From the NCBI RefSeq assembly GCF_030409835.1, contig NZ_JAUFQO010000003.1, positions 124,001-188,000 on the forward strand: a stretch of DNA of 64,000 bases, given 5' to 3'. The translations under genes were made by a program, and so were the position numbers. How positions within the stretch are numbered: the first letter of the stretch is position 1; every line of letters begins with the position of its first letter. The notes beneath the pieces are model-generated. The model searched no databases. It was not told the origin of the DNA and saw nothing but the letters and a program-made list of their open reading frames with translations. This stretch comes from Lutimonas halocynthiae (lineage in GTDB: Bacteria > Bacteroidota > Bacteroidia > Flavobacteriales > Flavobacteriaceae). Below are positions 1 through 53,425 of this stretch, piece after piece.

Positions 1-534
1 TTTTCTACTGTCTTGACAAGAACTGAACAATTCAACTATGATGACCTGGATGCTATTTCTGCCTATATCATGCGCGGAATTAAACAGCCTCCAAATTTAA
101 TGTATAATCCAAGTGGTGAATTGACGGCATCTCAGCTCAGAGGAAAGTCACTATATGAAAGAGATCATGACAAGCTGGGCAACCCGATACCTGAGAATAA
201 CCGATGTGTCACTTGCCATCCGGCTCCCTTATATTCAGATTTGAATCTGGCAGACGTGAGTACTTTGGCAACATCTGATGATCCAATTTTATTCGATACC
301 CCTCACTTATCCAATATTTTTGCCTCAGCACCCTATTTACACGATGGTCGTGCGAAAACGCTTGAAGAAATCTGGACCCTCTATGGTACAGATGATAAGC
401 ATGGCTATGTTAACGATATGAGTAAAAGTGAACTCAATGATCTGGTAAATTATTTAAAATCTTTAAGGAGTCCTACATACGACAATCCCGGTCAGGAAAC
501 ACAGCATGCAGGGCTATCCTTCTCACATAAATGA
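1..534 (+). CDS. Di-haem cytochrome c peroxidase-like protein, C-terminal part (partial)
   Basis: The reading frame is open from the first base of the window, so the true start lies upstream; the TTG at 13 is internal. The visible part holds one c-type haem site, CVTCHP, followed by TPHLSNIFASAPYLHDGR and a Leu/Glu-rich helix. The 'TP.L.N...APY.HDGR..TLEE' pattern is typical of the C-terminal haem domain of the bacterial di-haem peroxidase/MauG family, which act in the periplasm on peroxide or on a partner protein. The N-terminal haem domain would be outside the window. It is followed after 7 bases by the propeller gene and probably belongs to the same transcript. Peroxidase versus MauG/MbnH-like protein oxidation cannot be decided from this fragment. 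Confidence 0.8.
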   Translation, partial: FSTVLTRTEQFNYDDLDAISAYIMRGIKQPPNLMYNPSGELTASQLRGKSLYERDHDKLGNPIPENNRCVTCHPAPLYSDLNLADVSTLATSDDPILFDTPHLSNIFASAPYLHDGRAKTLEEIWTLYGTDDKHGYVNDMSKSELNDLVNYLKSLRSPTYDNPGQETQHAGLSFSHK

Positions 535-541
535 CAGGTAT

Positions 542-1759
542 ATGAAATATATGAAGCAACATAAAAAATCACCTACAGCCATAATCATAGCTGGACTTTT
601 CATTTTTATTTCGGTCAGTTTTATCAAAATAAATCTCGGTGCTGATGAGCCTGTATCTTCAGGTTTTTTAGCAGATGAAAATAACTTGGATGTAACTTCA
701 ATATCGAACGAATCGACTCTTTCCGAATCAGATAACGTGATGCCGATTTACGGTAATTGGGAACATTTTACATCGAAAAATGGCTTGCCTTCAGATAAAA
801 CATATTGCGTTCGAATTGATGAAGGCCGGGTTTTAGTTGGCACGCATGATGGATTATCCGTATTTGAAAAGGGCGCATGGACTACCTATACTACTGAAGA
901 TGGCTTGGCCCATAACGGCGTATTGGCTATAGACGTTAGCGAACAAACAGGAGATGTTTGGGTCGCCACAATGGGTGGCTTGTCTCGTTTTACCGCGGGC
1001 AAATTCGAAAATTTTAACCAAATGAACAGCGGTATGCCCAATGATCTTATCTATGCAGTAACCTGCGATGGCAAAGATGTTTGGGTTGCTACAGGTGGAG
1101 GTGCAGGTAAATACAACACGTTTAATAAAGAATGGGAGATCTTCACTGAAGAAAATGCACCTATGCATGAACCTTGGACCTATGGAATTTGTAGCGGGGA
1201 TAATAAAATTTATATAGCTGCCTGGGGAGGAGGTATCGTAGAATACAACAAGAAAAACGGACAATTCAGAGATTATACTGATCCGGATGGTAATATGGAA
1301 ATCGATCTCTTCCCGGATGACGGTCTGGTTCATGACATCACAACTGGTGCTTCCTGGGCTGATGGTATGCTATGGGTGGGAACTTATTTTGGGCTCAGCC
1401 GATATGATGGAACACGATGGAAAGGATATTTTGATCACGATAGCGGACTGGCCAGTAATTTTATCAATTATATCAAGGCTTCCGGAAAGTATGTTTATAT
1501 CTGTACAGACAAAGGGTTAAGTATCAGTGATGGTGAAAACTGGGTGACGTATACCCGCAACAAGGAAAATTTTTCAGGAAGCGCTGAGATCTTGATGGGA
1601 ACTCAAAAGACTGAAATCCCATTAAATCCTTCTTTGTCTCATAACTATGTTTTAGGCGTGGATATGAAGGATGACATGATCTGGGTAGCCACCTCAAAAG
1701 GCTTGAGCCGAGGTGAAATAATTAACAAAGAAGATATGGGTCTGGCTACGTCAGACTAA
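542..1759 (+). CDS. Secreted beta-propeller protein with Reg_prop (two-component regulator propeller) repeats
   Basis: The protein is about 405 residues. I chose the ATG at 542, seven bases after the cytochrome stop, because it gives MKYMKQHKKS followed by a hydrophobic segment (a signal anchor or signal peptide); an in-frame ATG at 506 would overlap the upstream gene. The body contains repeated units of the type 'W..FT...GLPSD....' and 'VWVAT.GGLSRF', spaced about 45-50 residues apart, as in the Reg_prop propellers of hybrid sensor kinases. There is no histidine kinase or response-regulator domain, so this is a free-standing extracytoplasmic propeller. Its ligand is unknown. Its position between a haem protein and secreted FG-GAP proteins suggests binding or scaffolding outside the inner membrane. 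Confidence 0.75.
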   Translation: MKYMKQHKKSPTAIIIAGLFIFISVSFIKINLGADEPVSSGFLADENNLDVTSISNESTLSESDNVMPIYGNWEHFTSKNGLPSDKTYCVRIDEGRVLVGTHDGLSVFEKGAWTTYTTEDGLAHNGVLAIDVSEQTGDVWVATMGGLSRFTAGKFENFNQMNSGMPNDLIYAVTCDGKDVWVATGGGAGKYNTFNKEWEIFTEENAPMHEPWTYGICSGDNKIYIAAWGGGIVEYNKKNGQFRDYTDPDGNMEIDLFPDDGLVHDITTGASWADGMLWVGTYFGLSRYDGTRWKGYFDHDSGLASNFINYIKASGKYVYICTDKGLSISDGENWVTYTRNKENFSGSAEILMGTQKTEIPLNPSLSHNYVLGVDMKDDMIWVATSKGLSRGEIINKEDMGLATSD

Positions 1760-1797
1760 AACCAATATAGATTATAAAATAATAAAAAGCAGGAATT

Positions 1798-2391
1798 ATG
1801 AGCAATACATTAGACATTCAGGAAAGAAAATTATTGATAGACCTTAATAAACTCACCGACGGTGAAAAATTAGAAATGCGCAAACTGGGAATTTTATCTG
1901 ATGATAATATGATAAGCCCATCTGTTTATCCAGAGGTTCACGCAGACAGGCCTCCAATTGAAAAACATGTGGTTCATGCGCCACAAACTATCAACGAAGC
2001 ATATGACTATCAAAAACCTTCTTCTTTTTCAAGAGCATTAAGACTAGATTTTGGAGGTCATAAAGTGCTTTTGATATCAGGTACAGCAAGTGTTAATGAA
2101 GAAGGTAAGCCAGAGCATATCGGTGATTTTAAAGCCCAATTGTGGAGAACTTATGTGAATATTACAAACTTACTTGAGGCTGAAGGTATGAGCTGGCATG
2201 ATGTTGTAAGAACCAGTAATTATTTGAGAGACATCGAAAGAGATTATGAAGAATTTAATAAAATAAGAACCTCTTTTTACCAATGGATGAATCTAGACCC
2301 ACTTCCTGCAAGTACAGGGATTCAGGCAAGATTATGCTGGGAGACATTATTGGTTGAAATTGAAGTTTACGCTATTTGTAAGTCAAACTAA
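1798..2391 (+). CDS. Rid/YjgF-fold protein with N-terminal extension, chorismatase-like signature
   Basis: This 197-residue protein has an N-terminal extension of about 70 residues and then a Rid (YjgF/L-PSP) domain: VLLISGTASV, a helix with QLWRTYVNITNLLEAEGM, VVRTSNYLRD, and the C-terminal strand LLVEIEVYAI. In imine deaminases of the RidA type the stretch before the last strand reads PARS, with an essential arginine; here it reads PASTGIQARL, so that arginine is replaced. The SGTASV and PASTGI segments are more reminiscent of the C-terminal half of FkbO/Hyg5/XanB2 chorismatases, but the protein is far shorter than those (about 330 residues). It has no signal peptide, so it is cytoplasmic. 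Function is not known; classical imine deaminase activity is unlikely. Confidence 0.75.
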   Translation: MSNTLDIQERKLLIDLNKLTDGEKLEMRKLGILSDDNMISPSVYPEVHADRPPIEKHVVHAPQTINEAYDYQKPSSFSRALRLDFGGHKVLLISGTASVNEEGKPEHIGDFKAQLWRTYVNITNLLEAEGMSWHDVVRTSNYLRDIERDYEEFNKIRTSFYQWMNLDPLPASTGIQARLCWETLLVEIEVYAICKSN

Positions 2392-2403
2392 AATAACTGT
2401 TTT

Positions 2404-3714
2404 ATGAGGGTTAATTGTGGTTTGTTCATTTCTATTTTAGTACTGATAGTGTTTCAGTTCGGGGATACCTATGGGCAAAATAAGGAACTAAAGTATGGGA
2501 AAACCCCAGACAAGTTATTTCCGTATCAGAATTTTCAAGAGGCATATAAGTATCATTTTGTTGAACCTGTACAGTTTTACGGGGCCGGACGTGAAAAAGC
2601 GGAACCCACAGATATTGAAGAGGTAAGGATTGGTTTTCTTGGTCCACTTGAAGGGTCTCCACTTGTGCCTCTCGGTGAACAAATGCTCAATGGTGCAACA
2701 CTAGCCATGGAGGAGGCAAATGCCAGGGGAGGATACAAAGACTTGCCTTATACTTTAATGACGCATAACGACGTAGGACTTTGGGGTGCAGCCGCTAACG
2801 AAGTGGTTAAAATGGATGAAGAAGGCGTCTGGGCATGGTTGGGCTCTATTGATGATATTGTATCTCATGTGGCACTACGTGCGACTTTGAAAATGGAAAT
2901 CATGATGGTCAATACAGGGGATCCTGATCCTACCTTTACTGAGACAAATATTCCATGGGCCATTAGAGTGATCAGTGATGACAGACAAAGTGGTTATGCC
3001 TTAGCGACTCATATTTTTGAAGAAAAAAATCATGAACGTGTTGCCGTGATTAGGGCGAATTCACGATATGGCCGGGTTGGTATTATGGAGTATTCTGGAG
3101 CTGCAGTGCGTTTGGGCCACCCTATGATGATCGAAGAAAGATTTAATGAAGGAGAAACAGATTTTTCCATGCAGTTGGAAAATATAAAAAGAGTGACTCC
3201 TGATGCCATTTTAATCTGGGCAAATGCAAAAGAGTCGGCGCTTGTTTTGAAACAGATTCGTGAAATGGGTATGCAGCAGCCGGTTTATGCTTCAGACCGT
3301 GCAGTTTCTAATGAATTTCTATCCATTGCAGGTGAATTTGCAGAAGGGATAGTAAGCACAAGTCCGTACAACCCGAATGCTGACAGTAAAAAACTAAAGA
3401 CCTTTCAGCTGGCCTATAAGAAAAGGTTCAATCTTGAAGCAGATGTTTATGCGGCCCATGCCTACGATGGAATGAATCTCATTTTAGCTGCAATAGAGAA
3501 AGTTGGTTTAAACAGGGTTTTAATTAGAGACGTGCTGACTGATCTGCATAGCTTTCAGAACTATAGTGGTGTTACCGGAGAAATTGTTTTTGATGAAAGT
3601 TGGAATGATATTGGTGAGATTTGGATGGCTGAAGTAAAAAATGGAAAATTTGTTTTCAGCCCGAGCCCTGAATTGGGTGAAAGAGCACATTCCGGAAAAA
3701 TGGTGGGGTATTGA
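2404..3714 (+). CDS. Periplasmic ligand-binding protein (branched-chain amino acid type, Peripla_BP_6)
   Basis: The 436-residue protein starts with a signal peptide ending near DTYGQ. After about 75 residues comes IGFLGPLEGS, then GEQMLNGATLAMEEANARGG, the usual opening of LivJ-type type I periplasmic binding proteins, with later segments VAVIRANSRYGR and YAAHAYDGMNLILAAIEK. These proteins bind amino acids, amides or aromatic acids and hand them to an ABC importer. No permease or ATPase of that kind is in the window. It follows the Rid gene by 12 bases and precedes a second, diverged binding protein, so the two are probably co-transcribed. The ligand cannot be inferred. Confidence 0.85.
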   Translation: MRVNCGLFISILVLIVFQFGDTYGQNKELKYGKTPDKLFPYQNFQEAYKYHFVEPVQFYGAGREKAEPTDIEEVRIGFLGPLEGSPLVPLGEQMLNGATLAMEEANARGGYKDLPYTLMTHNDVGLWGAAANEVVKMDEEGVWAWLGSIDDIVSHVALRATLKMEIMMVNTGDPDPTFTETNIPWAIRVISDDRQSGYALATHIFEEKNHERVAVIRANSRYGRVGIMEYSGAAVRLGHPMMIEERFNEGETDFSMQLENIKRVTPDAILIWANAKESALVLKQIREMGMQQPVYASDRAVSNEFLSIAGEFAEGIVSTSPYNPNADSKKLKTFQLAYKKRFNLEADVYAAHAYDGMNLILAAIEKVGLNRVLIRDVLTDLHSFQNYSGVTGEIVFDESWNDIGEIWMAEVKNGKFVFSPSPELGERAHSGKMVGY

Positions 3715-3751
3715 ATCAATAATCGTTGAAAATAATTATGAATAACCTGGT

Positions 3752-4810
3752 TTGAAAAACCTAAAGACTATTGCTACATTTATTTGTTTGTTTTCTTTTT
3801 TACTTTGTTTTCAGGTTGAAGGCAGAGGACAGCAAAAAGAAGGCAGCCAAGCCTATATTTCAATTGGATTGTTGGTTGATAAAAGCAATGAAACTGAAGC
3901 TTCGATAGCGGCCCTGAATGCCATAGAGTTAATCAATAATAAAGGCGGCGTAAAAGGGAAAAGATTAAACTTGATTATTCGCTCTGTCGAAGGGACCTGG
4001 GGGGCAGGGTCAAGTAAAATTGTGGAGCTGGTATTTGAGGAGAAGGTCATCGCGATAATAGGTTCTTTAGATGCGAGAAACACCCATTTAGCAGAACAGG
4101 TCATCGCTAAAACTCAAGTACCGTTTTTATCTGCATGGGCGAGTGAATCTAGTTTGACCAATGCTTATGTATCCTGGTTTTTTTCAATTGTTCCGAACGA
4201 CGAACAGCAGGCCCAAATTCTTCTGAACGAGACCTGTAAAAATAAAAACTTAAAGGAGTTAATGGTTGTTTTCGATGCTTCCTATGATAGTGAGCAAGCT
4301 TATAAGAGTTTGTTGGAGAAGGCTGCGAAATTACCTCAATTAAAAATACATCCACTTCGATTTCAAGCACAATCAGACGCTTCCAGTGTCGTTGCTGAAA
4401 TGAGAAAGAATAATACCGATGGCTTGATCCTTCTCGGGAGGGAATTACCGCTGAAAACGATTCAAGAGCAAATGCTAAAAACAAAGATCAATATCCCTGT
4501 TTTTGGTAATGTAGCGGCAAATGGGTCTCAAGACATTCTCGATAATGAAGATTTCATTATGCCTTTTAGAAATTCCTGGATCAATGGAAATAAAGCACTG
4601 TGTGAAGAAGCGTATTTTAGAACAAAAGAAAAAAAATGCAACATTATTGGTGCTTTAGCCTTTGATGCTGTTATGACGCTTACATCAGCGCTAGAACATT
4701 CAGCAGATAATCAAAATGACTTAAAAACGGGCTTGGATCAAATTAATTATCAAGGTATTACGGGGCCAGTTGAATTCGATTCACTGGGAAGAATAAAGAC
4801 TTCTGAATAG
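3752..4810 (+). CDS. Second periplasmic ligand-binding protein (Peripla_BP_6), TTG start
   Basis: This 352-residue protein is a shorter relative of the preceding one. It has a signal peptide (MKNLKTIATFICLFSFLL) and the family's opening strands ISIGLLVDKSNETEASI and ALNAIELINNKGGVKGKR, then VIAIIGSLDARNTHLAEQV. The only start that keeps the signal peptide is the TTG at 3752; the ATG just upstream (3738) is out of frame and stops within a few codons. Tandem paralogues that differ this much usually have different ligands or partners. No transporter membrane subunit follows; the next gene is an FG-GAP lipoprotein. Assignment to the family is good, ligand unknown. Confidence 0.8.
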   Translation: MKNLKTIATFICLFSFLLCFQVEGRGQQKEGSQAYISIGLLVDKSNETEASIAALNAIELINNKGGVKGKRLNLIIRSVEGTWGAGSSKIVELVFEEKVIAIIGSLDARNTHLAEQVIAKTQVPFLSAWASESSLTNAYVSWFFSIVPNDEQQAQILLNETCKNKNLKELMVVFDASYDSEQAYKSLLEKAAKLPQLKIHPLRFQAQSDASSVVAEMRKNNTDGLILLGRELPLKTIQEQMLKTKINIPVFGNVAANGSQDILDNEDFIMPFRNSWINGNKALCEEAYFRTKEKKCNIIGALAFDAVMTLTSALEHSADNQNDLKTGLDQINYQGITGPVEFDSLGRIKTSE

Positions 4811-4891
4811 TAGCCTTTGGATCGATTATTTGTTGCATTCGAAGAGAAAAAATTTCAATCAAATAGCTTTAGATTACTTAACTTTGATCGT

Positions 4892-7800
4892 ATGAAAAAT
4901 TTGGTGCTTTTAATTTTTTTTATCTTATTCGGAATTTTACAAGGATGTAAGGAATCAGCAGAGGAAAGACGCAAAAAATCGATTGAAATGATGACCACCC
5001 AAACCTTGGGTCTCGCGTATTTGGAAGAGTTTAAATTGGAAGAGGCTGAAATTCAATTCATTAAATTAATAGAGTTGTCTCCTGATGATAAAACCGGGTA
5101 TGCAAATCTTGGTCTGGTCTATCTTCGCATGGCTAAATACGAAGATGCTGAAGAACAAATTTTAGAGGCAGAGCGTCTTGATCCAGACGATGCTAATATC
5201 AGTCTGCTTTTATCGACTGTTTATCAAATGGATGGAAGAAGGCCAGAGGCTATCGAAGTTTTGAAAACGGCCCTTACAAAGGAGTCTGATCACAGTAAAA
5301 TATTATATGATCTGTCTGAATTGTACTCAGCCGATCCAGGGAAGGAAGCAGCAGGGATCAGAAAGAATTATCTCCAGCAGCTTGTAATAGAAGCACCTGA
5401 AAATATTGTTCCCCAATTGCAATTCATAGAATTACTTATAAAAGAGGGTGAGTCAGATCAGGCAATTGAAAGATTGGAAATTATTAAAAAGCAATTTCCT
5501 GAATTCCCTAAAGAATCTATAGCATATTATGCACAAACCATAGAAATGCTTAGAGAGCCAAACCTCGAAAAAGCCCTTATCAGTTTCACCATTTTTCATA
5601 ATTATCTGAAGGTTTCTTTTCCTTACCAAGCGGGTATAAATGAACTTAAAGGACCAGGAGGATCATTAATTGGATTTCCACTCATAAGCTATAACAGACA
5701 GGTTATTGATGAGACCATAGCTGATAAGTCTGTTCTGGAGGTTATTAAATTTAAAGACATAAGTGATGAGGCTGGTTTGTCAGCTATTAAATCCTATCCC
5801 GAAGCAGCCAAGAATTTTAAGAATACGACTCACATTAGCACTGCTGATTTTAATGGTGACGGGAACATTGATGTTTACATAGGGAGTTATAATGATCAGG
5901 GAAAAACATACGAGCATTATATGATGGAGAACAAAAGGGTTTCTTATCAGGATGTGACAAAGAATCTGGGAATAGCTCATCAGGGTGTGGAGTATGGAGC
6001 AGTATTCGCTGATTATGATAATGATGGGTTTCTTGATCTATATGTTCATATGGAAACTGGTAACATTCTTTATAGAAATGCTGATCAGGGAATTTTGGAA
6101 GACAAAACAGCAGCGTCTAAAATTATTGGGAATGCAGTTGAGAAGGCTTTGTTTTTTGACATGGATCAAGATGGTGACCTCGACTTATTTCAAGCTTCTC
6201 TTAATGGCGACAATGTATTCAGGAATAACGGGGACGGATCTTTTGTGAACATGACAGGAGAAATGGGTTTATCCTCTGAACAGAGAAAGGGTACTATGGA
6301 TGCCGCTTTTGGTGACTTTGATGATGATGGTGATGTTGACTTGATTACGACAGGAAAAACAGGAACTTATCTATATTCTAATGAACGGCAGGGGAAGTAC
6401 GAATTAGCTCAAAATTCAGGGCTGAAGGCAGATTCAGAAGGAAATTCTATTGTTGTTGTAGATGTGAATAACGACGGGTTTCTCGATGTGCTTATTGGTT
6501 CTTCAAAGTTGACGAACAGCAAGCTATATCTGAATTCGGGAAATGGAACTTTTGAGGAGATGGCCGAATTGGGGCCATTGCTTAGTTCATCTGACGAACT
6601 AACTGTTCTGGATGTGGCAAGTATTGATTTTGATAATGATGGGTTTCAGGACTTATTACTCACTGGAGAACCAGCAAAGTCTGATGGAACAGGTTTGATA
6701 TTGTTTCACAATGACGGAGCAGGTGGATTTATAAATACATCGTCTCTTATCAAAACCCCGGGATTAAGTGGTTGTCAACTTCAGGTATATGACCATGATA
6801 GTGATGGCGACAGAGATATTTTGGTAGCGCTTTCAGATGGGGGCGTCAAATTGTTCAGGAATGATGGCGGAAATATGAATCATTATGTCAATATGAAACT
6901 TGTTGGTTTAAGAACAGGAAGTGCTAAAAACAATTACTTTGGGATTGGATCGAAAGTCGAATTGCGTGCGGGAGATCTTTATCAGAGCATGGTTGTTACC
7001 GATCCGAATATTTATTTCGGACTTGGGCACAGAGAGAAAGCAGATATCATAAGAATTACCTGGACCAACGGCGTACCGCAGAATATACTATTACCTAATG
7101 CCGATCAAGCCTTGATAGAATCTCAAACCTTAAAAGGCTCTTGTCCGTTTTTATATACTTGGAACGGCAAGGAGTACGAGTTTGTAAAGGATATTACCTG
7201 GAGAAGCGCTTTGGGCATGCCATTAGGTATTATGGGTGGAACCACCAAATATGCTTTTGCGGATGCTTCAGATGATTATATCAAAATTGAAAATACACAA
7301 CTTGCAGCAATAGATGGGAAATATAAGATTCAGATTACATCTGAATTGTGGGAAACCATTTATATGGACCAGCTTGAATTAATTGCTGTTGACCACCCGG
7401 CAGATTTTGACCTCTTCGTTCCAGAACAATTTTCCCCACCACCGTTTCCTGGATTAAAATTGTACCAGGTGGATAAGAAAATATCCCCTTCATCTGCTAA
7501 AGATGAATTAGGGAGAGATGTTTTGCCAATGATCTTGCAAAAAGATGATCGTTATATTGATAATTTGACTGCGGATACCTATCAGGGAGTTACAAAGATG
7601 CATGATCTGATCCTTGATCCCGGAGAAGCAGGAAGATTGGATGGTCTTCATTTATTTTTAAGAGGATGGATCTTTCCTACTGATGCGAGTATCAATGTGG
7701 CGCTATCTCAGTCAGAAATACTAAAGGTACAAGCTCCAATAATTCAGGTTATAAATAAAAAGGGCTCATGGCAAACAGTACAAACTGATATGAGTTTCCC

Positions 7801-8452
7801 AATGGGAAAGGACAAAACAGTGATTGTCAATCTAGAAGATAAATTTCTTTCGGCTGACCATCGTATACGAATCCAAACGAATATGGAGATATATTGGGAT
7901 GAAATTTTCTTTGCTGCTGTTCAAAATTCAGAAAAAATAGCTCCTTATGTTTTAAAGGCAGAAAAAGCAGATCTTCATTACCGTGGATTTTCGCAAAGTT
8001 ATAGAAAAGGAGGCCGGTATGGGCCGCATTGGTTTGATTATGACAAAGTAGATTCATTACCTAAATGGCGTGATTTAACAGGAGCATATACAAGATATGG
8101 AGAAGTTTTGCCTCTATTGGCTGACGCTGATAACCAATATGTTATTTCAAATGCCGGTGATGAAATTTCGCTAACTTTTGATGAGGCCTCTTTGCCTGAA
8201 TTACCGAAAGGCTGGGTAAGAGACTTTTTTATTCACAGTGTAGGTTGGGTAAAAGACGGAGATCTAAATACGGCAGCAGGACAAACTGTTTCACCCTTGC
8301 CTTTTCATAGTATGAAGGCTTATCCTCCCTCAGAAACCGATATTTACCCTAAAGACACGAAACTTTCTGATTACAATAAAAACTATAATACAAGAATCGT
8401 AAGTCAAAGTACATTTCAGAACTCAATTAAACCAATTTTAAATGAAGAATAA
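4892..8452 (+). CDS. Large lipoprotein with TPR, seven FG-GAP/VCBS calcium motifs, ASPIC/UnbV domain and a unique C-terminal region
   Basis: Starting at the ATG at 4892 gives a lipoprotein signal peptide ending LFGILQGC and a protein of about 1186 residues; the upstream TTG at 4817 would hide it. Domains in order: TPR repeats (residues about 30-210, for example NLGLVYLRMAKYEDAEEQIL), then seven calcium-type loops such as DFNGDGNIDVYIG, DYDNDGFLDLYVH, DMDQDGDLDLFQA and DFDNDGFQDLLLT, which fits a seven-bladed propeller. Next comes an ASPIC/UnbV segment (GIGSKVELRAGD, FGLGHREKADIIRITWTNG). The last 430 residues or so begin LKGSCPFLYTWNGKEYEFVKD and match no domain I can name. It overlaps the next gene by 11 bases, so the two products are translationally coupled and probably work together at the cell surface. 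Confidence 0.85.
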   Translation: MKNLVLLIFFILFGILQGCKESAEERRKKSIEMMTTQTLGLAYLEEFKLEEAEIQFIKLIELSPDDKTGYANLGLVYLRMAKYEDAEEQILEAERLDPDDANISLLLSTVYQMDGRRPEAIEVLKTALTKESDHSKILYDLSELYSADPGKEAAGIRKNYLQQLVIEAPENIVPQLQFIELLIKEGESDQAIERLEIIKKQFPEFPKESIAYYAQTIEMLREPNLEKALISFTIFHNYLKVSFPYQAGINELKGPGGSLIGFPLISYNRQVIDETIADKSVLEVIKFKDISDEAGLSAIKSYPEAAKNFKNTTHISTADFNGDGNIDVYIGSYNDQGKTYEHYMMENKRVSYQDVTKNLGIAHQGVEYGAVFADYDNDGFLDLYVHMETGNILYRNADQGILEDKTAASKIIGNAVEKALFFDMDQDGDLDLFQASLNGDNVFRNNGDGSFVNMTGEMGLSSEQRKGTMDAAFGDFDDDGDVDLITTGKTGTYLYSNERQGKYELAQNSGLKADSEGNSIVVVDVNNDGFLDVLIGSSKLTNSKLYLNSGNGTFEEMAELGPLLSSSDELTVLDVASIDFDNDGFQDLLLTGEPAKSDGTGLILFHNDGAGGFINTSSLIKTPGLSGCQLQVYDHDSDGDRDILVALSDGGVKLFRNDGGNMNHYVNMKLVGLRTGSAKNNYFGIGSKVELRAGDLYQSMVVTDPNIYFGLGHREKADIIRITWTNGVPQNILLPNADQALIESQTLKGSCPFLYTWNGKEYEFVKDITWRSALGMPLGIMGGTTKYAFADASDDYIKIENTQLAAIDGKYKIQITSELWETIYMDQLELIAVDHPADFDLFVPEQFSPPPFPGLKLYQVDKKISPSSAKDELGRDVLPMILQKDDRYIDNLTADTYQGVTKMHDLILDPGEAGRLDGLHLFLRGWIFPTDASINVALSQSEILKVQAPIIQVINKKGSWQTVQTDMSFPMGKDKTVIVNLEDKFLSADHRIRIQTNMEIYWDEIFFAAVQNSEKIAPYVLKAEKADLHYRGFSQSYRKGGRYGPHWFDYDKVDSLPKWRDLTGAYTRYGEVLPLLADADNQYVISNAGDEISLTFDEASLPELPKGWVRDFFIHSVGWVKDGDLNTAAGQTVSPLPFHSMKAYPPSETDIYPKDTKLSDYNKNYNTRIVSQSTFQNSIKPILNEE

Positions 8453-10097
8453 ATTGCATATGTTTTTATGCCTCCTTTTTCTAGGGCTCCCAGTCTCATT
8501 GATTGCACAAGAAAAAGTAACTTTTGTAGATGTGGCGAAAACCTCAGGAATTGACTTTAAATATAATTTTGGCGATTATAATTATGAGAACATCTTAGAG
8601 AGCAGCGGTTCTGGCATTACAGTATTTGATTATAATAATGACGGGCTGATGGATCTTTTTATGATGAGTGGAACCTATTTGCCAGAAATATCAGATGAAG
8701 GAGGAAGGGGCTTTGCCAATAGCAGGGATAAGCTATATATGAATAACGGGGATGGTACTTTCACAGAAACCGGGAAAACAGCAGGAATCAATGATTTGCA
8801 ATGGAGTATGGCAGCCGGAGCGATCGACCTCGACCTGGATGGCTTTGAAGATTTATTCCTGCTCAATTATGGTAGTAATGTTTTTTACCACAATAATGGG
8901 GATGGAACTTTTAAGGATATCACTCAGGAACTTGGCTTAGCTGGCCCGGATAAATTAAATGGCTTCACTAAGTGGAGTATAGGCGTATCCTTTTGGGATT
9001 ATAACCTGGATGGTAGATTGGATGCTATGGTAGGTAATTTTTTAGCTTTTGATCCTGCTTATATTTCAACCCAGACTCCTGGTATGATGCCACACCCATC
9101 AGAGTATAAAGGCCAAGCCTCTTTACTGTATGAGCAACAGCCTGACGGAAGTTTTATGGAAGTGACTAAAAAAGCCGGTTTGTTTTATCCGGATTCCAAA
9201 TGTATGGGGCTTACAGTTGTTGATTATGATCACGATGGCGATCTTGATATTTTTCAGGCCAATGACCATCATTACAATTTTTTGTTTAGAAATGACAAAG
9301 GAAGTTATACAGAAGTTGGTGTTGCAAGTGGTGTTGCTGCAAACAGCAAAGGGCAGGAAACTGGCTCTATGCATGCTACGCTAGGTGATGTTAACGGAGA
9401 TGGTTTAATTGACATTTTTGTGTCTGATTTGAAATATGGGGCACTTTATCTGAATAAAGGGAACGGGTTGTTTGATGACATGACAGAGGAAAGTGGTATT
9501 GCTGCTGCTATGGCAGGAAAAGGAGGTTGGGGAGCTGCTTTTTTCGATTTTGATAATGACGGTGATCTTGATCTGATTACAGCAAATGGGACTGCAGAAG
9601 AGTTGATATTGCAATATCCTTTACTTATGGAAAACGACGGATCAGCTAATTTTACCGATGTGGGTAAAGAGCACGGACCCTACTTTTCTAAAAAAAGATC
9701 GGGTAGAGGCCTAGTCGTCTGGGACTATGATAATGACGGAGATCTGGATGTAAGCATTTCACACGTCGATTTGATGGCAAGCGCTTCACTTCTAAGAAAC
9801 GATGGAGGAAATGCCAATAACTGGCTGGGTTTAACCTTAAAAGGTGAGCTGGGTCTGGCTTCAGGAATTGGAGCCGTAGTAAGTGTCACATCAGGTAATA
9901 AAAAACAAGTCTTGGTCAATCAATGGACAAATGGTTATTTGTCAAACAAAGATTCTCGGGTTCATATCGGATTAGGAAGTAACAAAACAATTGAAGAGCT
10001 AAAAATTAATTGGCCAGATGGACAAGAAGAAATCTTTAAACAAGTACCCGTAAACACGTATCTTGAAATATATAAGGGAAAGGGAATTCAAAAATAA
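8442..10097 (+). CDS. CRTAC1-type secreted protein: FG-GAP/VCBS propeller with ASPIC/UnbV domain
   Basis: The 551-residue protein has a Sec signal peptide (MKNKLHMFLCLLFLGLPVSL, cleavage near IAQ). It carries seven Asp-rich loops: DYNNDGLMDLF, DLDLDGFEDLF, DYNLDGRLDAM, DYDHDGDLDIF, DVNGDGLIDIF, DFDNDGDLDLI and DYDNDGDLDV. The end is an ASPIC/UnbV domain (GIGAVVSVTSGNKKQ, HIGLGSNKTIEELKINWPDG). This is the standard CRTAC1 layout of bacterial secreted calcium-binding propellers. It overlaps the TPR-FG-GAP lipoprotein by 11 bases and shares its propeller/UnbV core, so the pair may be a duplication in which one copy gained TPR and C-terminal parts. The binding target is unknown. Confidence 0.88.
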   Translation: MKNKLHMFLCLLFLGLPVSLIAQEKVTFVDVAKTSGIDFKYNFGDYNYENILESSGSGITVFDYNNDGLMDLFMMSGTYLPEISDEGGRGFANSRDKLYMNNGDGTFTETGKTAGINDLQWSMAAGAIDLDLDGFEDLFLLNYGSNVFYHNNGDGTFKDITQELGLAGPDKLNGFTKWSIGVSFWDYNLDGRLDAMVGNFLAFDPAYISTQTPGMMPHPSEYKGQASLLYEQQPDGSFMEVTKKAGLFYPDSKCMGLTVVDYDHDGDLDIFQANDHHYNFLFRNDKGSYTEVGVASGVAANSKGQETGSMHATLGDVNGDGLIDIFVSDLKYGALYLNKGNGLFDDMTEESGIAAAMAGKGGWGAAFFDFDNDGDLDLITANGTAEELILQYPLLMENDGSANFTDVGKEHGPYFSKKRSGRGLVVWDYDNDGDLDVSISHVDLMASASLLRNDGGNANNWLGLTLKGELGLASGIGAVVSVTSGNKKQVLVNQWTNGYLSNKDSRVHIGLGSNKTIEELKINWPDGQEEIFKQVPVNTYLEIYKGKGIQK

Positions 10098-10186
10098 CAG
10101 CGCATCTAAATTATAGGGGGCCCCGGCTTAGGTATTTGGATTTCCTTAATTTAGCAATTCGCACAGCATCAATTTAAAGCACAAGT

Positions 10187-11518
10187 ATGATGAATCATCA
10201 ATATATAAGTAAAGTAGTAGATCTTACCGATCAGAAGAAGAACATGATCTATAATATGAGTCATGAAGAAGCTGTAGAAGTTGTTCGCTCAGGTGACCTT
10301 GAGGAGGTTAGAAAAATTGACGGACAGTTTTGCCTGATTTCTGTTGATGGAAAAACTATACGTATGGCCAGGTCAATCGGCAGACCGATACGGTATTTTA
10401 TTGCTAAACAAGCCATAGGCCCGCAATTGATTGTTGCTGAACGTATTGACGTTATTTATGAGCACCTCAAAAAGGAAGGTCTTGACGATCAGTTTCACCC
10501 CTCATACACCAGAATGGCTCCGGCACATTATGTAACGAGAATTGAGTTATTAGGCTGTCCTGATCCAAATCCAATATATGAAAGGTTTTTTACACCCAAA
10601 CGAAACGTATATCAACCCACACAAATTGAACAAATTGGCAAAGATTATATTGGTGCAGTCTATGAAGAAATCAAAAAATGGCTTCAATTCAGAGCAACGC
10701 AGGGGCCTATAGGAGTGACTTTTTCTGCAGGAATTGACAGTGGATCTGTTTTTATTTTGATGTACCATGCTTTAAGGGAGCTAGGAGAAAGCCCTTCGCG
10801 TTTAAAAGCTTTTACCTTATCGGTTGAAGGGGAAGGGGCTGATCTTATGCAAGCAAGAAAATTTTTAAGCGCTCTGGATCTTGAGTTGTTTCTCGAACCC
10901 ATTGAATTAGATTATCAATCACTAAACTGGAAAGAGGCCATTAATGTAGTTGAAGACTATAAACCTTTGGATATACAATCAGCTACTATGAATCTGTCTT
11001 TGCTAAAAAGTATCAGGTCTAAGTATCCGGATTGGAAATATATTATCGATGGAGATGGGGGAGATGAGAATCTAAAAGACTATCCCATAGAAGACAACCC
11101 TGAATTGACAATCAAAAGTGTTTTAAATAACCTGATGTTATATCATGAAGGATGGGGTGTAGAATCGATCAAGCATTCCTTAACTTATTCAGGAGGATTA
11201 AGCAGGGGCTATATGCGTACTTTTTCACCTGCGGATCTATTAGGTTTTGATGGGTTTAGCCCTTATACGCTGCCGAATGTAATCGAGATTTCAGAAGGAA
11301 TTCCATATATAGATCTAACTGATTGGGATCATCAAAAATTATATGATCTTAAAGGGCAAATCGTAGCTGCCGGAGTGAAAGCCATTACAGGAATAGATAT
11401 GCCAGTTTTTGAAAAGCGAAGATTTCAACACGGTGCCACTTCCAGTAATAACTTTAAAAAACATTTTCCGGAAAAAGACATCACCTATAGAAAGGAGTTC
11501 ATGTCTAGATATGAATAA
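10187..11518 (+). CDS. Asparagine-synthetase-like ATP-pyrophosphatase without N-terminal glutaminase nucleophile
   Basis: The protein has 443 residues. The C-terminal half has the PP-loop of the AsnB family as FSAGIDSGS (residues 179-187) and the second ATP/Mg motif DGDGGDENLKDYP (about 288-300, AsnB: GEGADE). The N-terminal part keeps fragments of the Ntn-fold (GQFCLISVDGKTIRMARSIG) but there is no Cys at position 2, so ammonia from glutamine is not expected. Such proteins adenylate a carboxylate and join it to an amine, as in beta-lactam or lasso-peptide synthetases. No signal peptide, so cytoplasmic. A radical SAM gene follows after 5 bases, which makes a two-step modification of one substrate plausible. 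The substrate is unknown. Confidence 0.82.
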   Translation: MMNHQYISKVVDLTDQKKNMIYNMSHEEAVEVVRSGDLEEVRKIDGQFCLISVDGKTIRMARSIGRPIRYFIAKQAIGPQLIVAERIDVIYEHLKKEGLDDQFHPSYTRMAPAHYVTRIELLGCPDPNPIYERFFTPKRNVYQPTQIEQIGKDYIGAVYEEIKKWLQFRATQGPIGVTFSAGIDSGSVFILMYHALRELGESPSRLKAFTLSVEGEGADLMQARKFLSALDLELFLEPIELDYQSLNWKEAINVVEDYKPLDIQSATMNLSLLKSIRSKYPDWKYIIDGDGGDENLKDYPIEDNPELTIKSVLNNLMLYHEGWGVESIKHSLTYSGGLSRGYMRTFSPADLLGFDGFSPYTLPNVIEISEGIPYIDLTDWDHQKLYDLKGQIVAAGVKAITGIDMPVFEKRRFQHGATSSNNFKKHFPEKDITYRKEFMSRYE

Positions 11519-11523
11519 TCAGC

Positions 11524-12480
11524 ATGGAAAGTTTTGACAGTCATTGGATTACTAAGAACAGGCCAGCAAGAAATGAGGTTGATAAATTTGAACCTTATGC
11601 CTGCTTAGTTGAAAAAGAGAGATCGAATTCTGGTTTGGTAGAGGATACAGGTATTATTTTCTTGACCAATAAGGAATGTTCTTTCACCTGTTTGATGTGT
11701 GATCTATGGAAAAATACAACCCTGACTTCTGTTCCTATAGGAGCTATTCCTGAACAAATTCGATTAGGCTTGAAACATATGCCTGATGTAAGTCGGTTAA
11801 AACTTTACAACAGTGGAAGCTTTTTTGATGTCAAATCTATTCCAGAAGAAGACTATAAACCGATAGCAGGTTTAGTAAAACATGTTGATAGGCTTATCGT
11901 TGAAGGGCATCCGAAATTGATAGGACAAAATTGCTTGGATTTTAGAGACATGCTGCAACCTGAGCTTGAAGTGGCTATTGGCTTGGAAACAGTAGAACCC
12001 AATGTTTTGAAAAAACTGAACAAGAAAATGGAGGTTCGAGACTTTGTTAGGGCCGTAAAATTTTTAAAAGCGCATCAAATTGACAGCAGGGCATTTATAT
12101 TGGTCAGGCCGCCGTTTATGAGTGAAAAGGAGGGTGTTTTCTGGGCAAAGAGATCGATTGAATTGGCTTTTGAAGCAGGTGTGTCATCTTGCACAGTTAT
12201 TCCGGTTAGAGCCGGTAATGGAGCTATGGATCTTTTAGAAGAACAAGGTCTGTTTCAAAAACCTTCTCTGGATTCTTTGGAAGAAGTACTTGAATATGGA
12301 ATTTCTTTAGGAGCAGGACATGTCTTTGCCGACACCTGGGACCTGGAACAATTCTCAAAGTGTCCTGCATGTTTTGATCAAAGATCAAATCGTCTGATTA
12401 AAATCAACCATAGTCAATCAGCAACTCCTAAAGTAACGTGTACATGTGACCCAAAGAAAAAGGGATATGCCATCGATTAA
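11524..12480 (+). CDS. Radical SAM enzyme with C-terminal cysteine cluster
   Basis: The 318-residue protein has the radical SAM motif CSFTCLMC (Cys 52, 56, 59) near the N-terminus, followed by RLKLYNSGSFFD, IGLETVEPNVLKKLNKKM and RAFILVRPPFMSEKEGV, the last part ending in VIPVRAGNGAM. The NSGSFFD and ETV.P..L segments resemble the RaSEA/TIGR01210 group (the radical SAM partner of archaeosine synthase), but that is only motif-level resemblance. Four more cysteines near the end, CPAC (280, 283) and CTC (306, 308), could hold an auxiliary cluster or zinc. It starts 5 bases after the asparagine-synthetase-like gene and ends the operon; the next gene is on the other strand. Reaction unknown. Confidence 0.85.
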   Translation: MESFDSHWITKNRPARNEVDKFEPYACLVEKERSNSGLVEDTGIIFLTNKECSFTCLMCDLWKNTTLTSVPIGAIPEQIRLGLKHMPDVSRLKLYNSGSFFDVKSIPEEDYKPIAGLVKHVDRLIVEGHPKLIGQNCLDFRDMLQPELEVAIGLETVEPNVLKKLNKKMEVRDFVRAVKFLKAHQIDSRAFILVRPPFMSEKEGVFWAKRSIELAFEAGVSSCTVIPVRAGNGAMDLLEEQGLFQKPSLDSLEEVLEYGISLGAGHVFADTWDLEQFSKCPACFDQRSNRLIKINHSQSATPKVTCTCDPKKKGYAID

Positions 12481-12510: not shown

Positions 12511-12897
12511 TCACATATATTTAGTCATAAATCGGAAAAAATCTTTTTTCAGCTTGTCATAAAGATTTCTCTCTGTTTCCATTACTTCTCTGAATGAAAG
12601 ATGTTGGCTAACAAACATTTTATTTAAAACATCTTCATTTTTTTCATAATGTGAAGCCATATTTTTTTCATGCATTTCGATTTGATCCTTCAAAGCATCA
12701 AATTCTTTTTGCTGGATCATAAATTGATTTTGAAATTTTTCGATTTCGGCTAAAACCTTATGATCAGTCCATCGTTTAACCAGCTCCTCAAGTCGTAAAT
12801 GAAAGGATTTTAATTCATCTTCCCAAAAGTCGAGTTCTCGTTGCCAATTTTCGTGCTCAAAATGTAAATCGATATTGTATATTATTTCTTTTTCCAT
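12511..12897 (-). CDS. Small cytoplasmic coiled-coil protein of unknown function
   Basis: This 128-residue protein is rich in Lys, Glu and aromatic residues and predicted to be mostly helical, with heptad-like stretches such as KRWTDHKVLAEIEKFQNQFM and ALKDQIEMHEKNMASHYEKN. No signal peptide or membrane segment is seen. It ends 30 bases from the end of the convergent radical SAM gene but is on the other strand, so it is not part of that operon. I do not recognise a family. Coding is supported by the clean ATG and typical codon use for this window. Confidence 0.65.
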   Translation of the reverse strand: MEKEIIYNIDLHFEHENWQRELDFWEDELKSFHLRLEELVKRWTDHKVLAEIEKFQNQFMIQQKEFDALKDQIEMHEKNMASHYEKNEDVLNKMFVSQHLSFREVMETERNLYDKLKKDFFRFMTKYM

Positions 12898-34472: not shown

Positions 34473-35723
34473 ATGTTTGATATAGATCGCTGGCAAGAAA
34501 TTTTTGATACCATTGCTAAGAATAAGCTTCGAACTTTTCTTACTGGTCTGTCTGTGGCTTCAGGTATTTTTATACTTGTCATTCTTTTAGGTTTTGGTAG
34601 GGGGATGGAAAATGGAATAAGAAAAGAATTTGAAGGAGATGCTACGAATCTCTTATATATATGGACGCAAACCACTACTAAAGAATATAAAGGCTTAAAT
34701 CCTGGCAGGAGAATACATTTGAATAATGAAAACTACGAGCATATTATTGCTGCCAATGGAGATAAAATTGAATACAGATCAGGTGTATTTCGCGTTCCAT
34801 TTGGTACTACAGTAAATTATAAAAATGAATCAGTAAGTTATGGTGTGTGGGGTGTTCATCCCGATTACCAGCAAATTGAGAATGAAAGTATGGTTTCTGG
34901 CAGGTTTATAGATCAGATGGACCTTGATCAAAACACGAAGGTTGTTGTGATTAGTAACAAGATTAAGCGTGAGCTATTAAATAAAGTTGAAGATCCATTG
35001 ACAGAATACCTGCAAATTTCTGGGATTAATTTTAAAATTATTGGTGTTTACAGTGATGCCGCAGGAGAGAGAGAAGAAGACAGGGTCTTTGTTCCTTTTA
35101 CTACAGCTCAGGGTGTTTTTAATGGTGCAGACCGCATCAATAATCTTGCTTTCACGATGAAACCTGAGAAGGATTTTGAAACAGCTGTGAAAGAATCTTT
35201 GCGCTTTGCTGAAGAAATAAAGCAATATTTAAAAGAGACGCATAAAATATCTCCTGATGATGATGCTGCAGTTCACGTAAACAATGTAATTGAAGACACA
35301 AAGCGGTTTTATACCTTGACAAGTAGTATAGCATTCTTTTTCTGGTTTGTGGGTATTTGTACAATTATAGCAGGTGTTGTTGGTGTTAGTAATATAATGA
35401 TGATCATTGTGAAAGATAGAACCAGAGAAATTGGTATAAGAAAAGCACTGGGAGCTAAACCTTGGTCAATTATCGGTATGATTTTGCAGGAATCTATTTT
35501 TGTAACGGCAGTTTCAGGATTTGCCGGTTTAATATTTAGTATGGGACTACTTGAAATTGTAGGTCCAAACATTGAAGTGGATTATGTGTTGAATCCGTCA
35601 GTGGATTTTTCTATTGCGATGACCATGGTTGTTGTATTGATTGTTGCGGGCGCTTTGGCTGGGTTTATTCCTGCTTGGAGAGCCGCTAATATACAGCCGA
35701 TAGAGGCATTAAGAGATGAATAA
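34473..35723 (+). CDS. MacB-type ABC transporter permease, first of pair
   Basis: The 416-residue protein has the MacB-type layout: one N-terminal helix (LTGLSVASGIFILVILLGFG), a periplasmic domain of about 250 residues, and three C-terminal helices (IAFFFWFVGICTIIAGVVGV, AVSGFAGLIFSMGLLEIVGP, VLIVAGALAGFIPAWRAANI) ending with PIEALRDE. The coupling loop GIRKALGAKPWSIIGMILQE contacts an ATPase. Next, 11 bases away, is a second permease with the same fold; together they form a heterodimer. No ATPase is adjacent, unlike most such operons. Confidence 0.9.
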   Translation: MFDIDRWQEIFDTIAKNKLRTFLTGLSVASGIFILVILLGFGRGMENGIRKEFEGDATNLLYIWTQTTTKEYKGLNPGRRIHLNNENYEHIIAANGDKIEYRSGVFRVPFGTTVNYKNESVSYGVWGVHPDYQQIENESMVSGRFIDQMDLDQNTKVVVISNKIKRELLNKVEDPLTEYLQISGINFKIIGVYSDAAGEREEDRVFVPFTTAQGVFNGADRINNLAFTMKPEKDFETAVKESLRFAEEIKQYLKETHKISPDDDAAVHVNNVIEDTKRFYTLTSSIAFFFWFVGICTIIAGVVGVSNIMMIIVKDRTREIGIRKALGAKPWSIIGMILQESIFVTAVSGFAGLIFSMGLLEIVGPNIEVDYVLNPSVDFSIAMTMVVVLIVAGALAGFIPAWRAANIQPIEALRDE

Positions 35724-35734
35724 AGACAAGCGTT

Positions 35735-36994
35735 ATGTTTAATAGAGATAAATGGAATGAAATTCTTGAAGTACTGACCACCAACTGGTGGAGGACGCTA
35801 TTGACTGCGTTTGGGGTTTTCTGGGGGATTTTCATTTTGATTCTTTTACTAGCTGCCGGGAAAGGTCTTGAAAACGGGATTAGGCAAGACTTTGGGGATA
35901 TAGCGACTAATACTATGTTTATGTGGACCCAACCTGTAAGTAAATCATATCAGGGTATGCCTAAAGGGAGAAATTTCAGTTACGATCTTGATGATGTTCG
36001 CGATATTAGAAACAATGTAGATAATCTGCGATTTGTTTCTCCACGAAACCAGCTTGGCGGTTTTAGAGGAGGAGGTAACGTGATTAGAGGCTTGAATTCT
36101 GGAGCTTTCGATATTTATGGAGATTATCCGGAAATTATCAAACAAGAACCAATGAATATCGTTGAAGGACGATTTATTAATTATAATGACATAGACGATA
36201 AAAGAAAAGTAGCCATTATTGGTCGAGGGGTGGAAACTAGTTTATATGAAGACGGCGAAGAAGTATTGGGTAGTTATATCAAGATCAATGGCGTAAATTT
36301 TATGGTTATTGGAGTGTACACCAAGAAAAGTGGAGGAGGAGATAGCGAGCGACAACAGAAACAAATTTTTGTTCCCTTTACAGCCTTTTCACAGGCTTTT
36401 AATCGTGGAGATAAAGTTGGTTGGATGGCCATAACAGCAATGGATGGCACACCCATAACTGATATAAAACAAAGTATTTTTGACATCGTTAAAAATAATC
36501 ATAAGATTCATCCGGAAGACGAGAGAGCAGTTGGTCATTTTGATCTTTTTGCGCAGTTCAATAGAGTGGAAAGCCTGTTTATGGCTTTGAAAGTTATCGC
36601 ATATTTTGTTGGAATACTTGTTTTGCTTTCCGGAGTAATTGGTGTAAGTAATATTATGCTGATTGTGGTCAAGGAACGAACAAATGAAATCGGAATAAGA
36701 AGGGCCTTAGGTGCTTCGCCAGGAAAAATAAGGAATCAGATTTTGACGGAATCTGTTTTTCTTACGATCATTTCGGGTATGGCTGGAATCGTTTTTGGAG
36801 CCACCCTCATCTTTGGGTTGAATTATGCTTTAGATATGATGGATCCAATTGATATGTTCGCCAATCCAAGTGTGAATTTAGGGGTAGTGACTATTGCATT
36901 AACTATTTTGATCATTTCTGGATTATTTGCTGGATTGATCCCAGCACAAACAGCTATTAAATTAAGGCCTATTGAGGCTCTTAGAACTGAATAA
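35735..36994 (+). CDS. MacB-type ABC transporter permease, second of pair
   Basis: The 419-residue protein repeats the architecture of the first permease: N-terminal helix (LTAFGVFWGIFILILLLAAG), periplasmic domain, and C-terminal helices including VKERTNEIGIRRALGASPGK as coupling loop and IPAQTAIKLRPIEALRTE at the end. It is 11 bases downstream of the first copy and 23 bases upstream of the adaptor gene. The ATPase needed to drive the dimer is not here, so it must be encoded elsewhere or shared. Confidence 0.9.
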   Translation: MFNRDKWNEILEVLTTNWWRTLLTAFGVFWGIFILILLLAAGKGLENGIRQDFGDIATNTMFMWTQPVSKSYQGMPKGRNFSYDLDDVRDIRNNVDNLRFVSPRNQLGGFRGGGNVIRGLNSGAFDIYGDYPEIIKQEPMNIVEGRFINYNDIDDKRKVAIIGRGVETSLYEDGEEVLGSYIKINGVNFMVIGVYTKKSGGGDSERQQKQIFVPFTAFSQAFNRGDKVGWMAITAMDGTPITDIKQSIFDIVKNNHKIHPEDERAVGHFDLFAQFNRVESLFMALKVIAYFVGILVLLSGVIGVSNIMLIVVKERTNEIGIRRALGASPGKIRNQILTESVFLTIISGMAGIVFGATLIFGLNYALDMMDPIDMFANPSVNLGVVTIALTILIISGLFAGLIPAQTAIKLRPIEALRTE

Positions 36995-37017
36995 AACAAC
37001 ATTGAAATAATAAAAAC

Positions 37018-42382: not shown

Positions 42383-42405
42383 TATCATTATAAATAAGAA
42401 ATAAA

Positions 42406-46947: not shown

Positions 46948-46952
46948 ATCAA

Positions 46953-48338: not shown

Positions 48339-48407
48339 AATGCAATTTTTATGCAAAGGCTAAATAATATTGTAGAGAAAGTTGGTATAAACCATAAACT
48401 TTTGTGA

Positions 48408-51415: not shown

Positions 51416-51432
51416 ATCGTTTCATTTTAATG

Positions 51433-51463
51433 CAAATATAAACTTAATTTATACGGATATCAA
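51433..51463 (-). promoter_or_regulatory. Promoter in front of the sugar transferase gene
   Basis: On the minus strand: TTG at 51463-51461, spacer of 20 bases, TATATTTG at 51440-51433. It overlaps the stop codon of the upstream glycosyltransferase gene, and lies 18 bases before the TTG start. Good match to the Bacteroidota consensus. Confidence 0.6.
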
Positions 51464-52269: not shown

Positions 52270-52276
52270 CTTATTT

Positions 52277-53410: not shown

Positions 53411-53425
53411 TTTTATGTTTAAAAT

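Follow-up and report, generated by a model that had tools for sequence, protein, structure and literature searches.

What do a haem protein, propeller and binding proteins, an asparagine-synthetase-like (AsnB-like) synthetase and a radical SAM enzyme do side by side in a flavobacterial genome? The question was raised by a 64,000-nucleotide stretch of Lutimonas halocynthiae (contig NZ_JAUFQO010000003.1; G000:C15:124001-188000), here called the window, which opens with nine plus-strand genes. A first-pass annotation of the window had described small gaps, one 11-base overlap and an opposite-strand neighbour, and had proposed one system in which cytoplasmic biosynthetic-type enzymes work with exported propeller, binding and haem proteins. 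The measured spacing and a 3' neighbour on the minus strand (12511-12897) confirmed the layout, and conserved gene order and co-occurrence supported the proposal: the block is a genuine conserved gene system of eleven or twelve genes, found in many Bacteroidota. Our reading of its function, which we hold with a probability of about one in three, is a single pathway across two compartments, in which a cytosolic enzyme pair would build a nitrogen-modified metabolite and an exported haem complex would oxidise it.

Gene order and distribution of the block

The nine genes were the 3' part of an eleven-gene block. In the contiguous contig upstream of window base 1 (stretches L082 and L084; minus coordinates), two further co-directional genes and the rest of a truncated third were present, bearing out the earlier suspicion that the start was missing. 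The block spans about 17 kb; its first gene begins 4.6 kb before base 1, and the gene ahead of it lies on the other strand. Ten core genes, encoding an FG-GAP protein, homologues of hydrazine synthase (HZS) alpha and beta-gamma, a Reg_prop propeller, two binding proteins, a TPR/FG-GAP protein, a CRTAC1-type protein and the AsnB-like/radical SAM pair (F0-A-BC-Rp-S1-S2-TF-C8-Asn-rS), kept one order and strand in 29 of 49 regions (28 of 48 distinct), a region being a stretch around a beta-gamma-like gene. The gene-neighbourhood comparison proposed in the first-pass annotation thus came out in favour of a system. Of the other 20 regions, 18 reached a contig end, L136 had an assembly gap (Ns) where the beta-gamma-like gene starts, and L142 held all ten genes in rearranged form.

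Near loci were sampled as the best 80 of 296 radical SAM relatives. The beta-gamma-like gene was found in 62 of these 80 genomes (44/50 and 18/30), many of which are draft assemblies, and some of the matches were fragments at contig ends. An alternative arrangement, with Asn-rS ahead of F0-A-BC, occurred in 13/80 loci, including Bacteroidales and two loci labelled Chlorobiota; copies were also present under the labels Calditrichota and Deferribacteres (L071, L080). In a tree of AsnB-like sequences, L061 and L070, both labelled Chlorobiota, were placed among Bacteroidota, which reflects either gene transfer or mislabelled assemblies. The AsnB-like gene was patchily distributed, occurring in 4/249 genomes of the window's family, 17/247 of its phylum and 3/59 of the phylum around G316 (the genome of L071). 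The beta-gamma-like gene occurred in 2/247 phylum genomes, each of them one of the 17 AsnB-positive ones, and in none of the 230 that lack the AsnB-like gene, the two samples of 247 being taken as an identical draw. Cultured carriers included Maribacter, Lutimonas and Lutibacter species, such as Maribacter polysiphoniae DSM 23514 (L038) and Lutibacter citreus.

The block opens with an FG-GAP/UnbV protein of 568 residues (-4638 to -2932, +), followed by the two HZS-like haem proteins described below. Next comes a Reg_prop-type beta-propeller (506..1759, +; PF07494, E 9.9e-05) with a hydrophobic N-terminus; with its upstream-most start it overlaps the preceding gene by 29 bases, and with the ATG at 542, which may be the true start, the two genes lie 7 bases apart. 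The 197-residue RidA-like protein (1798..2391, +; PF01042, E 3.1e-15; TIGR04444, E 7.8e-05) lacks a hydrophobic N-terminus; it is missing from the title of the first-pass annotation, whose family calls otherwise fitted. Two periplasmic binding proteins follow (Peripla_BP_6, 2404..3714, PF13458, E 4.2e-41; and 3752..4810, PF13458, E 5.6e-21; both +), and the block contains no permease gene. A TPR, FG-GAP and UnbV/ASPIC protein (4817..8452, +; PF13517, 1.2e-37; TPR_19, 2.9e-13; PF07593, 1.5e-05) shows, by eye, a lipobox-like LQGC after an internal ATG. It precedes a CRTAC1-type FG-GAP/UnbV protein with a hydrophobic N-terminus (8442..10097, +; PF13517, 1.7e-43; PF07593, 1.2e-18). Throughout, hydrophobic N-termini and inspection by eye served as the criteria for export. 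Just ahead of the block, a 1132-residue FG-GAP/UnbV protein (L082:11671-15069, minus) is encoded divergently to the cluster, about 290 bases away.

After the first gene pair in the window, the intergenic gaps measured 38, 12, 37, 6, -11, 89 and 5 bases. A cluster for a ribosomally synthesized and post-translationally modified peptide was ruled out because these gaps leave no room for a precursor gene in the window block. Promoter and terminator scans stayed at chance level (sigma-70, 58 found versus 58.7 expected from shuffles; terminators, 10 versus 11.5; Bacteroidetes-type promoter pattern in L084, 0 versus 1.38 expected), so they do not demonstrate an operon at transcript level.

The haem proteins and the AsnB-like/radical SAM pair

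The family calls of the first-pass annotation agreed with profile matches except that its "haem peroxidase" (window 1..534) proved to be the last 177 residues of a 677-residue HZS beta-gamma-like fusion (-1499 to 534, +; G000:C15:122501-124534); the key clue thus lies beyond the 5' edge of the window. The protein matched the NCBIfam HZS beta-gamma fusion NF052342 (E 5e-55, 187 bits versus a curated 1250) and was collinear with HZS beta-gamma in PDB 5C2V (5c2v_B, 4e-36; 5c2v_C, 5.4e-16). The gene before it, a 500-residue open frame (-3007 to -1505, +; probable ATG at -2920), matched HZS_alpha (PF18582, 65.7 bits, cut-off 26.6) and 5C2V chain A (1.6e-12), and scored 91 bits versus 800 with the curated NCBIfam model. 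Profiles built from 13 alpha-like and 11 beta-gamma-like homologues strengthened the 5C2V matches to 1.7e-32 (chain A), 6.5e-60 (B) and 1.3e-26 (C). Among 62 distinct copies, the alpha-like gene lay directly upstream of the beta-gamma-like gene in 56, and the Reg_prop propeller was the next recognised gene 3' in 58.

Together the two proteins carry four c-type haem motifs. A single CxxCH was present in 53/53 distinct alpha-like homologues, the motif of the second haem (alpha-II) being absent, and three were present in 56/57 distinct beta-gamma-like homologues. A tyrosine within ten residues after the alpha CxxCH was missing in 52 of the 53 (13/13 in alignment A1) and present in one. The position of HZS gamma-His144 held tryptophan in 11/11 sequences of alignment A2 (numbering counted from Cys102). 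At the site of gamma-Cys165, the third haem-bound Cys of HZS, numbered from the CxxCH in the alignment, Asp was found in 54/57 and Cys in 1/57, with no reading in 2/57; L065:15072-17102 is the sole homologue with Cys there. Passages of PMC12607021 and PMC12758564 describe the roles of the key HZS residues and give Tyr591 as the ligand of haem alpha-I. Because the alpha Tyr, alpha-II, gamma-His144 and Cys165 are missing, the best reading is that the haem complex is not a hydrazine synthase and is predicted to be of peroxidase or MauG type.

The gamma-like part points the same way. It has two C-terminal CxxCH sites of the MauG/CcP type and matches PF03150 (CCP_MauG, E 8e-08). W486 and Q496 were invariant in 11 aligned beta-gamma homologues, and the pattern recurred in 55/57 homologues in loose form and 48/57 in strict form. 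An inter-haem Trp with a Gln ten residues later is what we take to be the rule for di-haem peroxidases, and this pattern suggests peroxidase or MauG-type chemistry. Second, distant alpha/beta-gamma-like pairs were seen in L144 (G287:C143) and L145 (G317:C118); no AsnB-like or radical SAM gene was present on either stretch, and each beta-gamma match contained one TAA.

The AsnB-like synthetase (443 residues; 10187..11518, +; PF00733, 1.3e-09) and the radical SAM protein (11524..12480, +) close the block. Neither has a hydrophobic N-terminus, whereas the haem proteins do. In 80/80 near loci the AsnB-like gene preceded the radical SAM gene in the same orientation (median gap between matches, 23 bases). 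The AsnB-like product was the most conserved of the block, with a mean pairwise identity over 24 loci of 82.5% (RidA 80.5%, beta-gamma 66.8%, alpha 46.6%). All 91 distinct AsnB-like homologues had the PP-loop SGGxDS-type motif and none had a Met-Cys start within the first 40 residues, i.e. the glutaminase Cys is absent; the score against TIGR01536 was 35.5 bits (curated cut-off 267). The AsnB-like model (predicted local distance difference test score, pLDDT, 76; predicted template modelling score 0.81) ranked beta-lactam synthetase first, with asparagine synthetase, carbapenam synthetase and the hydroxyamidotransferase TsnB9 also listed, all structural matches being at 11-18% identity. This ranking is a guide only, since pLDDT fell below 50 at residues 291-345, partly within the most conserved stretch. 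The radical SAM protein is a distant RaSEA relative (TIGR01210, 102 bits, curated cut-off 212) that carries another Cys set close to its C-terminus; CxxxCxxC was found in 92/93 and the C-terminal set in 80/93 distinct homologues. Its model (pLDDT 92.5) was nearest to MgmA and Elp3. PDB sequence searches with both proteins returned nothing useful, and no description of the pair was found in the open-licence papers searched.

Two further genes tend to accompany the pair and the haem proteins. RidA-like genes occurred in 25 of the 28 complete distinct clusters; the RidA-like protein has weak similarity to FkbO/Hyg5 chorismatases. A DAHP synthase gene, identified by a motif and a home-made profile, stood between the two binding-protein genes in 19 of the 28; a check with curated models was made on the L070 copy alone (461 bits against a cut-off of 335). 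In L137, three genes (FG-GAP, DAHP synthase and TPR) are broken, each into two open frames.

The oxidising partner of the pair is exchangeable. A c554-type cytochrome adjoined or lay near the radical SAM gene in 6/80 loci (L023, L037, L058, L064, L067 and L077; profile match checked on L058), with four CxxCH in five full-length copies and, by eye, a hydrophobic N-terminal region. None of these six genomes had a beta-gamma-like match; 12 further genomes among the 80 had neither such a match nor an assigned module. The more distant loci (L085-L095) came from 11 of the 16 other AsnB-positive phylum genomes and cover seven families. There, a halogenase-like flavoprotein stood beside the pair in 11/11. 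Two copies matched Trp_halogenase in Pfam (1.1e-14 and 3.7e-14), and one (L088) matched the NCBIfam profiles of CmlS, QhpG, LodB and GoxB, all below cut-offs. Halogenase-like motif patterns were present in most copies; in L092, L093 and L095 the WxWxL type was missed, as was the Lys pattern in the first of these. Flavoproteins of the halogenase, QhpG and LodB kind oxidise aromatic rings or residues. In the AsnB tree (90 sequences), the flavoprotein-linked copies formed one group (99/98), while c554-linked copies (five of six included) needed two changes and HZS-linked copies nine. In L090, a TPR-FG-GAP protein is also encoded beside the pair. The constant unit is the AsnB-like and radical SAM pair, and the variable unit is the oxidising module, namely an HZS-like haem complex, a membrane c554 cytochrome or a flavoprotein.

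Proposed pathway and competing explanations

Most simply, a constant pair beside swapped oxidising modules can be read as the source of a nitrogen-modified metabolite that is then oxidised. In the cytoplasm, the AsnB-like synthetase would join an amine to a carboxylate, using ATP; as it lacks the glutaminase Cys, the nitrogen probably comes from an amine and not from glutamine. The radical SAM enzyme, akin to RaSEA, would then remodel the synthetase product, and RidA and, in many relatives, the extra DAHP synthase may act in the same pathway. These two enzymes, together with the kinship of the flavoprotein to aromatic-oxidising enzymes, suggest an aromatic or chorismate-linked precursor. After export from the cytoplasm, the product would be oxidised in the periplasm or at the outer membrane by the HZS-like alpha and beta-gamma proteins, in the manner of MauG or a di-haem peroxidase. 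The two binding proteins might hold or pass on a small molecule, in line with an earlier suggestion of delivery or capture, and the FG-GAP, TPR and propeller proteins may scaffold the assembly. Gene content, conserved order, haem motifs, the missing glutaminase Cys and the varied redox partners of the pair are observed, whereas we infer the reactions, their order, the precursor, the export and the scaffold role.

Several observations weigh against this pathway. Its substrate and product are predictions from gene content, and the idea of an aromatic precursor draws on a DAHP synthase absent from the window's own cluster and on the weak chorismatase match. The block contains no exporter gene. 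No relatives of the haem or binding proteins were found on the stretch in any of the 11 distant loci, so the role of the pair may be confined to the cytosol. The Glu that we take to lie about 20 residues after the Trp in di-haem peroxidases stands 23 after it here. Finally, in a comparison made without a species-tree control, the distances of the block proteins correlate with one another, a result that vertical inheritance alone would also give.

Alternatively, the exported di-haem complex and the cytosolic pair might modify residues of a protein of the block so that they form a protein-derived cofactor of the quinone type, in the way of MauG, QhpG, LodB and GoxB. The MauG/CcP-like gamma part and the scores of the L088 flavoprotein against QhpG, LodB and GoxB are consistent with such maturation. 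However, no target protein was identified, no systematic search for one having been made; a clustered DAHP synthase suits a free metabolite better, and the AsnB-like and radical SAM proteins differ from the haem proteins in showing no hydrophobic N-terminus. We consider this explanation unlikely.

It is likewise unlikely that the alpha, beta-gamma, propeller and FG-GAP proteins form an exported respiratory or surface redox complex while the pair does a separate cytosolic job, e.g. nucleoside or tRNA modification. In favour of separate jobs, the membrane c554-type multihaem cytochrome replaces the HZS-like module in six loci, the two halves of the system lie on different contigs in G119, and RaSEA acts on tRNA in Archaea, according to passages of PMC11298593. 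Against them stand the fixed gene order in 28/48 regions and the lack of any beta-gamma-like gene in phylum genomes without the AsnB-like gene (0/230).

The boldest model, to which we give rather little credence, is that the pair is a new nitrogen-transfer machine. By analogy with ArcS/RaSEA, the synthetase would ligate an amino acid carrier and the RaSEA-like enzyme would cut the carrier off radically, and the resulting N-containing metabolite would be the true substrate of the widespread HZS-like family. In the archaeosine route, as described in passages of PMC11298593, lysine is first attached to carry the nitrogen, and RaSEA then turns the adduct into archaeosine. If true, the model would uncover the original function out of which hydrazine synthase evolved.

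A true hydrazine synthase, or another enzyme forming N-N bonds from NO and ammonium by anammox-like (anaerobic ammonium oxidation) chemistry in Bacteroidota, is very improbable. Adjacent alpha and fused beta-gamma genes collinear with HZS, the Cys of L065 and the single alpha homologue with a Tyr after CxxCH speak for it. We rejected it on the missing key residues, the single alpha haem motif and scores far below curated cut-offs; moreover, the parts of Hagglund et al. (PMC12758564) that treat clades I-III of HZS homologues reach the same verdict. No HAO-type multihaem protein of the hydrazine dehydrogenase kind (PF13447) was found in the Lutimonas genome, by a search that matched no control genome either. 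Chance grouping of unrelated operons, for which the patchy spread might be cited, was rejected on the conserved ten-gene order and the recurrence of the same genes in rearranged form, and is next to impossible.

Elsewhere in the window, two MacB/FtsX-type permeases are followed by an HlyD-type membrane fusion protein (34473-38118, +), and adjacent genes encode 2-oxoglutarate dehydrogenase E1 and E2 (39641-43623, +). On the minus strand, a single run comprises two ABC-2 permeases, an HlyD protein and an outer membrane efflux protein (43629-48356), and there are exopolysaccharide-type genes for a sugar transferase, a glycosyltransferase, Wzy_C, EpsG and flippase-like proteins (49985-57137).

Relation to known systems

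The pair resembles known enzymes in parts. Beta-lactam and carbapenam synthetases and asparagine synthetase B are the top folds of the AsnB-like model, which shares their intact PP-loop; beta-lactam synthetase also lacks the glutaminase Cys. The identity is low, however, and it is the constant radical SAM neighbour that sets the AsnB-like gene apart. What the block has in common with ArcS/RaSEA is the combination of a ligating enzyme with a radical SAM enzyme resembling TIGR01210. Here, in contrast, the neighbour is AsnB-like (ArcS itself was not searched for), the TIGR01210 score is half of the curated cut-off, and the pair is bacterial and coupled to a secreted redox cluster. The gamma-like part shares two C-terminal CxxCH, the CCP_MauG match and the inter-haem Trp with di-haem peroxidases, MauG and MbnH, but forms one chain with a YVTN propeller that brings a further haem motif, and has an HZS-alpha-like protein as its partner.

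The first-pass annotation knew of no described pathway with this gene set. This did not stand for the exported core (FG-GAP, alpha, beta-gamma and two binding proteins), which is already in print as clade III of the HZS homologues, the match being one of description only. In the passages concerned, Hagglund et al. 2025 (PMC12758564) describe clade III as having FG-GAP upstream, one alpha haem, an extra beta-gamma motif and two binding proteins downstream, and the homologues of clades I-III as lacking key residues. The block agrees in having FG-GAP before alpha, one alpha haem and no alpha-II, a fused beta-gamma with an extra motif, and two binding-protein genes 3'. The claim held for the pair in so far as the main text of that paper contains neither "radical SAM" nor "asparagine"; nor do the sections consulted mention RidA, DAHP synthase or Reg_prop genes or swapped redox modules. 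In L142 (G325:C21), the order alpha, FG-GAP, beta-gamma is that described for clades I/II, yet an AsnB-like and a radical SAM gene stand in the vicinity; this locus is a possible link between the published clades.

Anammox HZS (PDB 5C2V) shares homologous alpha, beta-propeller and di-haem gamma parts with the block, the beta-gamma fusion being as in Scalindua. It differs in having the key active-site residues and haem alpha-II, which the block proteins lack, while the block beta-gamma carries an extra N-terminal haem motif. Passages of PMC10732223 suggest that enzymes of the HZS type may belong to a wider family. Hydrazine synthase is the hallmark enzyme of anammox, and the question of its origin bears on this cluster, which co-encodes homologues of its subunits with biosynthetic-type enzymes. 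The cluster provides a substrate pathway for the HZS-like fold that can be put to the test, and it brings out an AsnB-like/radical SAM pair that stands beside three different oxidising modules.

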